From contig WGFM01000016.1 of the NCBI GenBank assembly GCA_015492245.1, forward strand, positions 1 through 62,248: a DNA stretch of 62,248 nucleotides, written 5' to 3'. Shown here piece by piece: positions 6,780 through 13,023 of the stretch (position 1 is the first letter of the stretch; the number at the start of each line of letters is the position of its first letter). The notes under the pieces are model-generated. The model was not told the origin of the DNA. It ran no database searches and saw nothing but the letters and a program-made list of their open reading frames with translations. This DNA comes from Deltaproteobacteria bacterium. Its GTDB lineage: Bacteria; Desulfobacterota; GWC2-55-46; DRQE01. Position numbers and translations under genes: made by a program.

Positions 6780-8693
6780 TCAGTTATCCATGTTGCCTGA
6801 AAGCTCACCGTAGGGGAAGTCATACCTGTAGGGAACAACCGCCACACTAACGCCCATCTTCTTGACCTTCTTTGCAAGCTCTATTATTTCTCTTTCAGCA
6901 AGGGGTCTGCCGGTTTTCCAGTCTATAGTCTGTAATTTTATCAAAATTTTGCGTGGAACTCCAATAATGCGTTTTGCCCTGTCGGTCATCTTGAGTATGA
7001 GTTCCTCCACCTCGTTCATGTCTTTGCGTAACTCATCGGATATTTGCTTCTGATACGCCATTATGGCGTAGTAGTCAAACCCCTTTTCTGCAGCCTTGTG
7101 CAGGTCCTGGGAGAACCATGCAAGTGCGTTCGAAGGGCTTGTGAGGTTCTCGTACATGAGGTTTATGGCAAACTTGACCTCGGGGTTGACCCTTCTTACA
7201 GTCCTCTTGAGCTCGTCTATGATGTGTATGAGTCTTCTGTTTTTCCACTCGGCCCACTGCCAGAAAAGGGGCGTGTAGGTTATTATGGAGTCCTCTCTTA
7301 TACGGTAGAGTCTCGATGGTTCGAGCTCGAGGCCTGTCTCTTCTCCGAACCCTCTCATGGCCACAGGGCTCAGCCCTTCGTTGTATTTGAGTATGAGGTC
7401 GTCCTGGAAGAGTATGCCATCTATGGGGTATTTTGCGAGATCACGGTATAGGGCCTTGATATGCTCCACAGCTGTATCGTTGAAGAGGTCAAGCCCCTTG
7501 CACCTGAAGAACCTTCTCTTTCTCACATCGTAACCTCTGCAGGCAAGCTCCCTTCTATCTTCTATGCCATAGTTTGCATACCTTGTGGTCATCCATGCAA
7601 ACACCCGTATACCCTCCCTGTGGGCCGCATCGAGTATGGGTGTGAGTATATCCGCAACAACAGGTGCATGGGAGGTCTTGAAATATACCCCGGCACGGGG
7701 CAGCATCTTTGTGGTCCTGACAAATGGATACGGACGATCCCCCCTGTTGTGGAATACCCTCAGTATTATGGTATCTATGCCATGTGTCTTGAGCCGCCTT
7801 ATCTCTCCTCTTACATCTTCAAGTGTTTTTCCTGAAAAGAACATCACCTGTACAGCCCTTAGTGGTGTGGCCATGGCAGGGGGCATGGCATCTACAGCTC
7901 TTTTTTCTACAAACATGGTTGGGCTGAAAGACGGGGTTCTCTTTGGTGGTAGCTCAAAGGTGTCTTCAAAAGATGGCTTCCTTCTCGATGGCAGAGAGAC
8001 AAGGTAGTATTCTCCAGAGGGTGTCTTCCGGTCGGGAAGATGGGCAAGATAATATTCAACCGATGGTGTTCTTCGCTGTGGAAGATAAGTGGTGTAGGGG
8101 AGCCATGGAGTCCTTTTTTGCGGAAGGGAGGCCATGTAGTCATGGTAGGGGTGTCTCTTCGGTGGCAGCCAGAGTGCCCAGTAAGGGGGTGGAAAGCGTT
8201 TTTCAGGCAACCCATGGGTGTAGGGAGAGGATAGTCTTTTCTGTGGGAGCGATGAGAAGTGGTTATAAGAAGGTGGCCTTCTGTGAGGAAGATGGGTCAA
8301 CCACCTCCGGGGTTCTGTTATGAGTCCTATGGCCTCAAGTCTTTTTTTTGCGGCCTCATGGAACCTCGATGCAGGGTAGTTCTCAAGAAACTGGGTGAAC
8401 TGGAGCGCTGCCTCACGGTAGTCTCCCTTGAGGAAGAGGGTGTCTGCAATGTAGAACTGTGCGTCCATCTTGAGTGGGCTCAATGGATAGCTCACTATGA
8501 GGCGCTCCAGCTCTCTTACGGCCTTCTGCCAGTCTTTCAGTTCCCTTAGGACCATGGCATATCGGAACTGAACCGTATCCGACGGTCTGGTATATACTGT
8601 GGCGGAGGCTGCTGCATTGTCTGGCACAGGGGGGAGCAGCAGGCCTGCAAGCACCATGGCCATCAAAGATACCCTTTTAATCAAAGAGCACAT
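6780..8693 (-). CDS. Secreted PgaB C-terminal-like (GH153-type) protein with TPR and nine LPxKR repeats
   Basis: A 637-residue exported protein. Order: basic n-region and hydrophobic signal peptide (about 1-30); a short TPR-like helical unit (about 42-120) resembling YbgF/BamD tetratricopeptides; nine tandem 13-15-residue repeats, LPx[KR][RK]xPS-like (135-261); then a TIM-barrel domain (about 275-635). The barrel resembles the C-terminal glycoside hydrolase domain of PgaB, with HNRGDRPYPF, FAWMTTRY and an acidic pair in GILFQDDLIL (D431, D432). In PgaB that domain cleaves partly deacetylated poly-N-acetylglucosamine. The CE4 deacetylase domain that normally precedes it is absent. Likely role: cutting an exopolysaccharide or wall polymer in the periplasm or outside. 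The start overlaps the radA end by 17 bp. Confidence 0.8.
   Translation of the reverse strand: MCSLIKRVSLMAMVLAGLLLPPVPDNAAASATVYTRPSDTVQFRYAMVLRELKDWQKAVRELERLIVSYPLSPLKMDAQFYIADTLFLKGDYREAALQFTQFLENYPASRFHEAAKKRLEAIGLITEPRRWLTHLPHRRPPSYNHFSSLPQKRLSSPYTHGLPEKRFPPPYWALWLPPKRHPYHDYMASLPQKRTPWLPYTTYLPQRRTPSVEYYLAHLPDRKTPSGEYYLVSLPSRRKPSFEDTFELPPKRTPSFSPTMFVEKRAVDAMPPAMATPLRAVQVMFFSGKTLEDVRGEIRRLKTHGIDTIILRVFHNRGDRPYPFVRTTKMLPRAGVYFKTSHAPVVADILTPILDAAHREGIRVFAWMTTRYANYGIEDRRELACRGYDVRKRRFFRCKGLDLFNDTAVEHIKALYRDLAKYPIDGILFQDDLILKYNEGLSPVAMRGFGEETGLELEPSRLYRIREDSIITYTPLFWQWAEWKNRRLIHIIDELKRTVRRVNPEVKFAINLMYENLTSPSNALAWFSQDLHKAAEKGFDYYAIMAYQKQISDELRKDMNEVEELILKMTDRAKRIIGVPRKILIKLQTIDWKTGRPLAEREIIELAKKVKKMGVSVAVVPYRYDFPYGELSGNMDN
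7911..8291 (-). repeat. Nine tandem LPx[KR][RK] protein repeats inside the GH153-like gene
   Basis: This segment encodes residues 135-261. Nine consecutive units of 13-15 residues each begin LP followed by x, two basic residues and usually xP[S/P]: LPHRRPPS, LPQKRLSS, LPEKRFPP, LPPKRHPY, LPQKRTPW, LPQRRTPS, LPDRKTPS, LPSRRKPS, LPPKRTPS. The intervening residues are rich in Tyr and Ser. The repeat is strongly basic and proline-rich and is probably extended rather than globular. DNA copies have diverged, so the repeat is maintained at protein level. Confidence 0.93.
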
Positions 8694-10050
8694 CTATAGC
8701 CTCTTTAACTGTTCTAACTCCTTCAATGGTTACATCCGTGTTCATGGTGGATGTGGTCTTGAGGCAGTCCTCTGGCAGTATACATCTTTTGAAGCCCAGT
8801 TTTTCTGCCTCCTTTATGCGCTGGAGGGTCTGTGTAACTCCTCTTACTTCTCCTGCAAGGCCTACCTCTCCAAAGAGCACGGTATCTTGCCTGACCGGTT
8901 TGTCAAGAAAGTTCGAGGCAAGGGCTGCCACAACCGCAATGTCTACTGCTGGCTCATCCACCTTTATGCCGCCTGCCACCTTTACGAATATGTCGTGATT
9001 GAGGAGCCTTATGCCGGCCTTTTTCTCGAGCACCGCCCCGGTGAGCGCGACCCTGGAGGGGTCAAGCCCCACAACGGTTCTCCTTGGCATACCCAGGTAA
9101 GAGGGAGACACCAGGGCCTGTATCTCCACGAGCACCACCCTTGTGCCCTCAAGGCTTGCCGTAACGGCCGAGCCAGAGCTGCCCTGCGGCCTTTCGGCAA
9201 GGAATATCTCAGAGGGGTTTTTGACCTCCCTGAGCCCCCTGTCTACCATCTCGAACACCCCTATCTCCATTACAGAGCCGTAGCGATTCTTTACCGCCCT
9301 CAGAATTCGGTAGGTGTGGCCTGAAGATCCCTCGAAGTAGAGCACTGTATCCACCATGTGCTCGAGTACGCGTGGGCCTGCTATGGAGCCATCCTTTGTT
9401 ACATGCCCTATGAGGAAAAGGGGCATCTCGAGGGTCTTGGCTGTGGATACAAGTAGTGCCGTAACCTCGCGCACCTGGGTCACACTGCCCGGAGAAGAAG
9501 AAAATGCACTGCTGTAAAGGGTCTGCACAGAGTCCACCACAACGGCAGATGGTTTGAGCTCTTTGAGCTTCTCGGCTATCCTTTCGGCGAGTATCTCTGT
9601 CCATACAAGAAGCCCTGGGGTTGTAACCCCCAGCCTTTCTGCACGCATCCTTATTTGCCGTGCAGATTCCTCACCAGATACATAGAGCACCGTTCTGCCA
9701 TCCTTTGCAACCGCTCCCATGGCCTGAAGCAACAGGGTGGACTTTCCTATGCCAGGGTCTCCACCAACGAGCACCACGCTCCCTGACACCATGCCACCTC
9801 CCAGGACCCTGTCCAGTTCTTCCATGCCTGTGGAATACCGTGAGCAGGTAGATGTGTCCACATCTGTAAGTGAAGATGGTGAGGATGAACTCTCACCTAT
9901 GAATGTGCGCAAAGGAGGGGAGGAGGTGGGCTCATACAGCCGTTCCTCTGCAAGGGTATTCCAGCTGTTGCACCCCGGACACCTGCCTCGCCACTTGACA
10001 CTCGAGTATCCACAGCTCTGACAAACATACTCTGTCTTTACCTTTCCCAT
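8677..10050 (-). CDS. radA: DNA repair protein RadA (Sms)
   Basis: A 457-residue RecA-like ATPase that drives branch migration of recombination intermediates. It has an N-terminal zinc finger with Cys10, Cys13, Cys24 and Cys27 (CQSC, CPGC), a Walker A GGDPGIGKS in the RecA-like core, the RadA-specific KNRYG motif (in AVKNRYGSV), and a C-terminal Lon-protease-like domain. Length and order match the family. It is the first gene of the minus-strand run ending at the Mut7-C gene and is divergent from the HEAT protein gene, with 90 bp between the start codons. Confidence 0.98.
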   Translation of the reverse strand: MGKVKTEYVCQSCGYSSVKWRGRCPGCNSWNTLAEERLYEPTSSPPLRTFIGESSSSPSSLTDVDTSTCSRYSTGMEELDRVLGGGMVSGSVVLVGGDPGIGKSTLLLQAMGAVAKDGRTVLYVSGEESARQIRMRAERLGVTTPGLLVWTEILAERIAEKLKELKPSAVVVDSVQTLYSSAFSSSPGSVTQVREVTALLVSTAKTLEMPLFLIGHVTKDGSIAGPRVLEHMVDTVLYFEGSSGHTYRILRAVKNRYGSVMEIGVFEMVDRGLREVKNPSEIFLAERPQGSSGSAVTASLEGTRVVLVEIQALVSPSYLGMPRRTVVGLDPSRVALTGAVLEKKAGIRLLNHDIFVKVAGGIKVDEPAVDIAVVAALASNFLDKPVRQDTVLFGEVGLAGEVRGVTQTLQRIKEAEKLGFKRCILPEDCLKTTSTMNTDVTIEGVRTVKEAIDVLFD

Positions 10051-10092: not shown

Positions 10093-10140
10093 AAGTTGAG
10101 CGATAAATTACTTCCAACCAGGGAAAGTTCAACAAAACCC

Positions 10141-11679
10141 ATGCAAACAGATATTACAAACATACTAATTGAACTGAACAGGGCTGTCAAGATACTTAAC
10201 TTCTATCCCCAGGGGCATCCACACAGGGACGAGGCCGTAGGGAACTGCTACAAGCTATTAAAAGGCCTTGTAGAAGAAGATGGAGAGGTTAGGCTGCAGA
10301 AGGTAGACAAAAGGATTGCAGTAAACGGGGTTCACAGCCACCATGCTTTCTCCACATCTCTTGCCAGGGAGTTCTTCTTAAGGAAGATAGAGGCCATAAC
10401 ATTTACCAGAGGCTTTACGGAACAGGATGTGCTCGTTTTTCTGGGGCTCTTTGTGGCAAAGCCAGAGGAGGTGCTCGAAAGAGGTGGCGCAGAAAGGGTC
10501 ATAATAGGGGAGAACACCATGGGGTTGCTCGTAAATGACCTCACCTTCGAGATAATAGAGAGCGAGAGGGAACAGCAAAAGGAGCAGTATGCACAGGCAG
10601 ATAGCCTCGAAGGAGATAAAGAGGACAACCTGGAGAGAAAAGAGGAAGAGACCACCCACCACGAAGAGGACAACCTTCCATGGCTTCTCGATAGGATTGA
10701 GCAGGAGAAGGATGTTATAAGGTACAATGACCTGGCAATTCGTATAGTGGAGAAGGCACTCCATCTTGTAGAGGCCAGGGGGTTCGATGAGCTTTTTGCG
10801 GCACTCAGGGTCTTCCTGAAACACACACTTACCAACAGCCTTCCTGAAGAGATAAGGAAGAAGGCAAGGGAGTGCTTGTCCCAGCTTCTCGGTAACGAAG
10901 ATATTATCAGGTATCTTGTAACAAGAATAGGCAGGCAGGACGAGACCGAGCAGACCACCATACATCACCTGCTTGTCATGTGTGAAGACCGCTCTGTGGA
11001 CATAATGCTCGATGCCCTTGTGGATATAGAGGATGCCCAGGTTAGAAGAAAACTCTTTAATGCACTCATCTATTTTGGAGACAGGATAAAGGATAGGGTG
11101 GAAGCCAGACTGAATGATCCGCGCTGGTTCGCCGTAAGGCAGATGGTCTCACTCCTTGGCACCATAGGTGGAGAGGACTCTCTGGATGCCCTTGAACAGG
11201 CATACAGGCACCTGGATGTAAGGGTAAAGAAAGAGGTGCTGAAAAGCCTCGCACGGATACCATCGCCAAGGTCGTCCAGGCTGCTTATTGCCACAATACA
11301 CGACAGAGAGGCAGACAGAACACTCAAGGGACAGGCAATAATATCACTTGCCATACTCAAGGACAAAGAGGCGGTGGATGTGCTCGGTGAGCTTGCCACA
11401 AGAAGAGATGCCTTCACAGACAATACGGACCTTAAGAAAGAGGCCATAAAGGCTCTGGGTATCATAGGGGACAGAAGGGCACTGCCCTATCTTGAAAAGC
11501 TTGCCACAAGAAAGGCATGGTTTCGCAGGCAGGCCAACGAGGAGCTCAAGACCCTTGCCATACTCTCGCTCGGCAAGATAGGCGGAGAGGAGGCAATGGA
11601 TATAATAAAAAGGGTGTGTAATCAATCTACGGGCAGCCTCTATGCAACCTGTAGACGGGTGCTCGAAGGCAAAATGTAG
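10141..11679 (+). CDS. HEAT-repeat protein with an N-terminal domain shared with its HD-GYP neighbour
   Basis: About 512 residues from the ATG at 10141. The N-terminal ~135 residues contain FYPQGHPH and TFTRGFTEQDVLVF, matching the N-terminal part of the next protein (LYPPRHPS, IFEKGVSERELTSF). A charged Glu/Lys-rich linker follows (about 140-185), then a long array of HEAT/PBS-lyase-like helices to the end (for example GTIGGEDSLDALEQ and LGIIGDRRALPYLE). No signal peptide or membrane segment is seen. HEAT arrays are protein-binding scaffolds, so it may assemble a complex with the HD-GYP protein, whose start lies 6 bp after this stop. An upstream TTG (10096) is rejected because the promoter start lies downstream of it. 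Confidence 0.82.
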   Translation: MQTDITNILIELNRAVKILNFYPQGHPHRDEAVGNCYKLLKGLVEEDGEVRLQKVDKRIAVNGVHSHHAFSTSLAREFFLRKIEAITFTRGFTEQDVLVFLGLFVAKPEEVLERGGAERVIIGENTMGLLVNDLTFEIIESEREQQKEQYAQADSLEGDKEDNLERKEEETTHHEEDNLPWLLDRIEQEKDVIRYNDLAIRIVEKALHLVEARGFDELFAALRVFLKHTLTNSLPEEIRKKARECLSQLLGNEDIIRYLVTRIGRQDETEQTTIHHLLVMCEDRSVDIMLDALVDIEDAQVRRKLFNALIYFGDRIKDRVEARLNDPRWFAVRQMVSLLGTIGGEDSLDALEQAYRHLDVRVKKEVLKSLARIPSPRSSRLLIATIHDREADRTLKGQAIISLAILKDKEAVDVLGELATRRDAFTDNTDLKKEAIKALGIIGDRRALPYLEKLATRKAWFRRQANEELKTLAILSLGKIGGEEAMDIIKRVCNQSTGSLYATCRRVLEGKM

Positions 11680-11685
11680 GAAAGC

Positions 11686-13023
11686 TTGCCAGTGGATAAG
11701 GAGACAAAGGATACCATACTGAGAACCATAAACTCTTCTCTCCAGACGAGAAAGCTCTATCCTCCCAGACATCCATCGGTCATAGGCACCATAAGAAGAC
11801 TTCAACAGTTGTTCCTCGACTTGTTCCGCACACAGACCAAGCTGGTTGTTGCAATGATGAACGATGAGTTGATGTTCGATGATACCCCTGTCGCCAACAG
11901 TAGAGCGGGTTATCCTGATTTTTTCACACGAATGAAGAATAAAGAGATAGAGGCGATTATCTTCGAGAAAGGTGTCTCCGAAAGGGAACTCACCTCCTTC
12001 ATCGATACAATGCTTGCCGATGATGTGAAGGCCGACAACCTCAAAAGCGAGCTCTCCAAAAGAGGGGTTACCCATGTAACCATAAGGTCTGTTGGAAGTG
12101 GTAAGGGGGTATTCCTCAGGGTATATAACGATGCCATCGAGGTGGTAAAGAATACACTGGACGATATACGCATGGGTAAGCTTCCAAGGGCAGGGCCTGT
12201 AAAGCGGGTGGTGGGAGAGATGACAGAGCTTGTGCTCTCTGACTCGAGCGTCATGATAGGGCTTACCATGATAAAGAACTACGATAGTTATCTATACAAC
12301 CATTCTGTCAATGTGAGCATAATAGGGCTTTCATTTGGAAGCTTTATAGGGCTCGAGAAGGAAGAGCTCGAGGTGGTGGGCACCGCGGGGCTGCTGCATG
12401 ATATAGGAAAGACAGGTATTACCGAGGAGATAATAAAGAAGCCCGGCACCCTCAGCTATGAAGAATGGGAGCAGATAAAACAGCACCCCGTCATTGGAGA
12501 GAAGATAATAAAGAGGATAAATGGTATAAAGGAACTTGTCTCGAGGCTGGTCTACGAGCACCATGTGAGGTATGATCGTTCGGGCTATCCTGATGTGAAG
12601 GGAGATGTCCACCCCATGAGCATGATAGTAACCATCGCAGACTCCTACGATGCCCTTACCACCCTAAGGGTATACCAGAAACCCTACCAGCCCAGCGAGG
12701 CGGTAAAGATACTGAAAGGGCTGAGCGGCAAACACTTTGATCCAGAGATGGTCGAGAAGTTTGCCGATATGCTCGGTGTCTACCCTGTGGGCACCCTCGT
12801 CAGGCTTTCCACCAACGAGGTTGGTGTGGTCATAAGGGCCAATCCTGTGGATACCGAGAGGCCAGTGGTCAAGGTTATATACGATAAGGATGGAAGGCTG
12901 CTTGGAGAACCATTTGAGGTAGACCTTGCCAGCGGCCCCCATGCCCCCAGGATAGTGGGCGCTGCAGACCCTTGCTCGAGGGAGATGGACCTGGGGGATT
13001 TCTTCACGAAAGAGACCAACTGA
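11686..13023 (+). CDS. HD-GYP domain protein, putative cyclic-di-GMP phosphodiesterase
   Basis: A 445-residue cytoplasmic protein. Residues ~1-160 form a domain shared with the preceding HEAT protein. The HD-GYP domain follows at about 190-370, with His206, the HD pair His238/Asp239 in LLHDIGKTG, His267 in KQHPVIGEK, and HHVRYDRSGYP (292-302). These metal ligands are all present, so the domain should be active and most likely hydrolyses cyclic-di-GMP. A C-terminal ~60-residue beta-rich segment ends the protein. The start is TTG (11686) or GTG (11692) after AGGAAA; the choice is uncertain. It is co-transcribed with the HEAT gene and converges on another HEAT gene with a 1-bp gap. Confidence 0.92.
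   Translation: MPVDKETKDTILRTINSSLQTRKLYPPRHPSVIGTIRRLQQLFLDLFRTQTKLVVAMMNDELMFDDTPVANSRAGYPDFFTRMKNKEIEAIIFEKGVSERELTSFIDTMLADDVKADNLKSELSKRGVTHVTIRSVGSGKGVFLRVYNDAIEVVKNTLDDIRMGKLPRAGPVKRVVGEMTELVLSDSSVMIGLTMIKNYDSYLYNHSVNVSIIGLSFGSFIGLEKEELEVVGTAGLLHDIGKTGITEEIIKKPGTLSYEEWEQIKQHPVIGEKIIKRINGIKELVSRLVYEHHVRYDRSGYPDVKGDVHPMSMIVTIADSYDALTTLRVYQKPYQPSEAVKILKGLSGKHFDPEMVEKFADMLGVYPVGTLVRLSTNEVGVVIRANPVDTERPVVKVIYDKDGRLLGEPFEVDLASGPHAPRIVGAADPCSREMDLGDFFTKETN

Follow-up and report, generated by a model that had tools for sequence, protein, structure and literature searches.

Domain organization of the exported GHL13 protein

The window, that is, the whole stretch of 62,248 nucleotides analysed here, carries on its (-) strand at 6780..8693 a gene for an exported protein of 637 residues, in which a TPR unit, a cationic repeat region and a GHL13 domain follow one another. 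The open reading frame is genuine, with the coordinates and strand given in the initial annotation, and a Shine-Dalgarno-like AAAGAGG stands ahead of its ATG. As also noted there, the gene is flanked by radA and a Crp/FNR regulator. The conserved upstream neighbour radA (8677..10050, (-)) overlaps with its end the start of the GHL13 gene by 17 nt. This 17-nt overlap is also present in the sister genome, and overlaps of 14-17 nt recur in two distant members of the family (loci L071 and L090). Divergent from radA, the window contains HEAT-repeat and HD-domain proteins at 10096-13023 (+). The N-terminal ~100 residues of this pair are weakly similar to each other (22% identity, E 0.002), and both genes recur beside radA in related genomes.

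Residues 1-30 (approximate; 8604..8693, (-)) form a signal peptide, with KR, a hydrophobic stretch and AAAS/A; residues 3-19 are helical in the AlphaFold (AF2) model, and a lipobox is absent. The TPR unit follows at residues 38-126 (8316..8582, (-)). It corresponds to a periplasmic TPR pair of the YfiO/YbgF type (TPR_6, 44 bits; YfiO, 27.5 bits), is modelled as helices over residues 39-126 and is conserved across the order. The next region, residues 135-261 (7911..8291, (-)), comprises nine LPx[KR][KR]xP repeats and is predicted to be disordered. In the full-length model the TPR helices are confident and the TIM barrel is largely so, and nearly all residues of the repeats have pLDDT values below 50.

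The C-terminal 361 residues (277-637; 6783..7865, (-)) are a TIM barrel resembling the C-terminal half of PgaB. The HMM search proposed in the initial annotation gave 102 bits for Pfam GHL13 (cut-off 27) and a weaker match to GHL10 (PF02638), which at 38.9 bits exceeds its cut-off of 27.9; the barrel is assigned to GHL13. Of the NCBIfam profile TIGR03938 (PgaB), only the glycoside hydrolase half was matched (positions 326-595; 113 bits against a cut-off of 322), and the profile search found no CE4 deacetylase domain in the 637-residue protein. The closest PDB structures by Foldseek were the glycoside hydrolase domains of E. coli and Bordetella PgaB (TM-score 0.74-0.76 by target), followed by the GHL10 protein Cwp19 (0.64). 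These results bear out the earlier proposal of an exported PgaB-like glycosidase fold at the C-terminus. They also exclude an unrelated TIM-barrel family, the GHL13/PgaB match being accompanied by a conserved acidic pair.

The cationic repeat array

The nine LPx[KR][KR] units are spaced 13-15 residues apart. Shuffling of the region 20,000 times gave a mean of 0.06 motifs and a maximum of three, and the sister genome retains all nine units in the same places, so that the tandem basic proline-rich repeats first described are well founded. Over the 18 units of the two genomes, the leucine and the first proline are kept in 18/18, K or R at both basic positions in 18/18 and the second proline in 17/18. 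The motif positions are thus far better preserved than those between the motifs. Units at the same position in the two orthologues are 62% identical, compared with 40% between unlike units. This means that the array is older than the split of the orthologues.

The codons for the motif residues vary from unit to unit, and TRF detected no tandem DNA array in the region, its only match being one of 1.9 copies and 13 nt. These observations rule out recent tandem duplication. They indicate that the motif is maintained at the protein level, and to judge from the aligned units it is under constraint there. The omega values of the two orthologues were 0.13 for the repeats, 0.06 for the TPR unit and 0.08 for the barrel, which are rough values because synonymous sites are near saturation. 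(K + R) minus (D + E) is 12 in both orthologues. This net positive charge is not proof of binding; tethering to an anionic polymer might be one of its consequences. When modelled alone, the repeats had no confident structure (mean pLDDT 56, pTM 0.13). A sortase-like reading of the LPxKR motif as LPxTG was rejected by reasoning: the motif is internal and present in nine copies, has neither Thr-Gly nor a C-terminal anchor, and occurs in a diderm host.

The repeats are present in both genomes of the genus that were searched (G000 and G001, the latter being HyVt-575, locus L031), and were not found in the remaining genomes searched from the family, the order and the phylum. The other 394 genomes of the phylum gave only noise (E > 0.003). 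The concern that the repeat is a known linker of this phylum can accordingly be set aside, its strong matches being restricted to the two genus genomes. It should be mentioned that members from Syntrophaceae and related bacteria (L078, L081, L082 and L097) have long Lys/Glu/Pro-rich linkers between TPR and barrel with repeated EEPKK-type units. These are another charged linker, the make-up of which is unlike LPx[KR][KR]xP.

A stand-alone clade beside radA

Of the 39 genomes in the order sample, 33 had a GHL13 match above the cut-off, each a single one (as two pieces in one fragmented genome). The stand-alone family spans many deltaproteobacterial lineages, Deferribacterota, Nitrospinota and Rokubacteria. 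Two genomes of the same family, estimated to be 100% complete (G002 and G007), are without the gene, which means that its role is dispensable. The CE4 domain is absent from every stand-alone copy read: ahead of the barrel lies nothing more than a signal peptide, a TPR unit with a variable linker or, in five credible cases, a lipoprotein signal. One stand-alone member (L099:7902-9581) has its barrel at the N-terminus and ~180 extra C-terminal residues. TPR plus barrel is the normal arrangement in the order, usually with a short linker, and across the clade the linker varies freely in length and composition. The architecture had been called unfamiliar; this holds for the repeats, which are unusual, and not for TPR plus barrel. 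Nor did the TPR unit replace a deacetylase half, as had been supposed.

Fused PgaB was above the cut-off in 12 of 395 genomes of the phylum sample. In one genome of the phylum (L126; G142:C92) the fused PgaB match extends over two open frames, each half still being recognizable. A maximum-likelihood tree split the stand-alone clade from the fused PgaBs with support of 100/100; it was computed without DigH, the inclusion of which had given an earlier tree a very long outgroup branch. In addition, one genome (G081) carries both forms, a fused PgaB inside pgaABCD and a stand-alone copy (L071) at radA. The split, the clade-wide absence of CE4 and this coexistence together lead to the conclusion that the gene is not PgaB minus a domain. 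The statement that the protein "has lost its deacetylase" is therefore withdrawn, and CE4 loss from PgaB is ruled out by the tree and the coexistence. From the sequences compared here, the stand-alone clade is a separate sister group of PgaB/GH153, widespread and unstudied.

The same observations weigh on the idea that the protein is a PgaB derivative, in which TPR plus repeats were swapped in for the deacetylase and which trims an unknown exopolysaccharide. Its hydrolase half does match PgaB, and its substrate is likely not deacetylated PNAG, as that idea would have it. However, the clade-wide lack of CE4, the tree, the coexistence in one genome and the lack of exopolysaccharide genes nearby make it very improbable.

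As for the neighbourhood, 47 of the 80 stand-alone loci yielded a radA homologue, which in 46 lies directly upstream on the same strand; several of the radA-less loci are truncated by a contig end. The block trmFO - HEAT - HD - HEAT - radA - gene - FNR - kinase - PFK is largely retained within the taxonomic order. In our best reading, the gene is inherited vertically as a single copy next to radA, among housekeeping-like neighbours. In eight loci of Mucispirillum-type Deferribacterota (L101-L107 and L109), radA was not found near the gene. They have another upstream neighbour in common, which contains a long charged stretch rich in Pro, Glu and Lys; farther up lies an argS-like gene.

The gene does not belong to a pgaABCD operon. 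Homologues of pgaA, pgaC and pgaD were found neither in the window nor near the 80 stand-alone loci. In the source genome, neither PgaA nor fused PgaB was above the cut-off, and the best PgaC match scored 99.6 bits, where the cut-off is 422; GT2 proteins unlike PgaC are present. The gene at 6780-8693 is the sole GHL13 and the sole GHL10 match of this genome. The gene is surrounded by housekeeping genes, with no exopolysaccharide genes nearby, and no cell-wall gene is a constant neighbour of the clade. Two CE4 genes are present in the source genome. Deacetylation in trans was considered and rejected: neither the surroundings of the one near TatC, Lon and gyrB nor the two genes inspected next to the other indicate an exopolysaccharide locus.

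Active site and proposed function

Residues were mapped onto Bordetella PgaB, the residue roles and mutants of which were taken from the literature (PMC5933820), and were counted over 32 stand-alone members, with 12 PgaBs for comparison. D431-D432 (7398..7403, (-)) corresponds to the catalytic D474 of Bordetella (D466 of E. coli) and its neighbour and is kept in 32/32, in agreement with the acidic pair first noticed; the barrel thus combines the GHL13 fold of GH153 with its catalytic aspartate. E439 (7377..7379, (-)), kept in 31/32, corresponds to E471 of Serratia PgaB, the proposed acid/base partner (PMC13366581). The groove residues W526, Y547 and K484 are common to the barrel and PgaB. Bordetella H473 is Q430 here, and glutamine is also found in several fused PgaBs.

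In Bordetella PgaB, D326, D328, D364 and E585 bind the GlcN-containing substrate (PMC5933820). The places of D326 and D328 are occupied by M284 and F286 (7836..7844, (-)) and that of D364 by N316 (7746..7748, (-)), which is asparagine in 32/32. E585 aligns with I551 in an alignment that rests on a gapped stretch. All four equivalents are replaced across the whole clade, so that the acidic residues required for full activity on deacetylated PNAG are absent. R312, N316, D319-R320, E515, Q550 and E554 are near-invariant in the clade and absent or rare in PgaB; E515 (7149..7151, (-)) is an invariant glutamate of the clade and occurs in only 3/12 PgaBs. In the bolder proposal given below, N316, D319-R320, D431-D432, E439, E515 and E554 would be the clade's own active-site signature. 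The barrel looks active but re-tuned, and the earlier suggestion that its substrate is not the standard one is probably correct.

Since the D364N variant of Bordetella PgaB retains about 25% activity (PMC5933820), a PNAG-type substrate can still be considered. The barrel might cut PNAG or a closely related polymer of beta-1,6-GlcNAc, supplied by neighbouring cells or by unrecognized synthases, with other needs for N-acetylation. The fold, the catalytic aspartate and W526, Y547 and K484 in common with PgaB would fit this, as would the GT2 proteins unlike PgaC. We regard it as unlikely, however, with the acidic subsites lost, no PgaA/PgaC-type export route above the cut-off and a vertical, housekeeping-like gene context. 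Somewhat less likely still is a barrel that serves as a non-catalytic carbohydrate-binding scaffold, with the repeats as a neutral genus-specific spacer. AF2 does give the repeats no confident structure and linkers of the clade differ freely, but D431, D432, E439 and E515 vary little or not at all, and the repeats keep their motif positions far better than the positions between.

We favour, with a probability of roughly 0.55, an exported and probably active endo-glycosidase, sister to GH153, the substrate of which is a glycan of the envelope and not deacetylated PNAG; the repeats would tether or extend it on an anionic polymer. The barrel would cut this glycan at the cell surface or in the periplasm. 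It keeps the catalytic aspartate and its partner and has lost the acidic subsites selecting glucosamine, so that the most likely substrate would be other than deacetylated PNAG. The N-terminal TPR unit might position the barrel via a glycan or a protein partner. The linker between TPR and barrel, ordinarily short, seems to have expanded in this genus to nine cationic motifs in a flexible array. These might hold the enzyme on an anionic polymer of the envelope or extend it there.

Our leading guess for the substrate, held tentatively, would be peptide-free peptidoglycan strands, since the GHL10 relatives Cwp19 and DigH act in this manner and the gene context is vertical and not that of an exopolysaccharide. 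Cwp19 is a peptidoglycan lytic transglycosylase (PMC6016235); DigH of E. coli hydrolyses denuded glycan (PMC12288456). Against this link, the GHL10 score of 39 bits is below the 102 bits of GHL13, and cell-wall genes are not constant neighbours. A bolder proposal, that the clade is an unrecognized class of envelope glycosidases on peptidoglycan strands and the array a new cationic module for multivalent binding of anionic polymers, is a doubtful one.

Profile libraries score the clade as PgaB-like (GHL13, TIGR03938), and it could be mistaken for PNAG machinery where this is seemingly absent. From its altered subsites, another substrate is to be expected, and they single out individual residues for testing. 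In the array, an enzyme carries a disordered cationic motif that is clearly maintained by selection at the protein level, which opens its binding function to direct tests.

Among known systems, PgaA has a TPR scaffold that binds PgaB and PNAG (PMC9384988), and the idea of a TPR unit paired with a PgaB-type hydrolase is the same. Here, in contrast, the TPR unit is on the barrel's own chain, is YfiO/YbgF-like by profile, and a porin is absent. The GHL10 peptidoglycan glycosidases have in common with the barrel the fold class, a weak match above the cut-off and an aspartate of DigH, which aligns with D431. They differ in score (38.9 bits versus 102 bits for GHL13) and in a far lower alignment similarity, and the barrel protein has no CWB2 repeats. 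The closest system is the hydrolase domain of PgaB/GH153 from E. coli and Bordetella (PDB 4p7o and 6au1), with the same TIM barrel, the same DD pair containing the catalytic aspartate, and E439, W526, Q588 and other groove residues. Unlike PgaB, the gene product is without CE4 and a pga operon and belongs to a separate clade, and M284, F286, N316 and I551 stand for D326, D328, D364 and E585 of the Bordetella enzyme.
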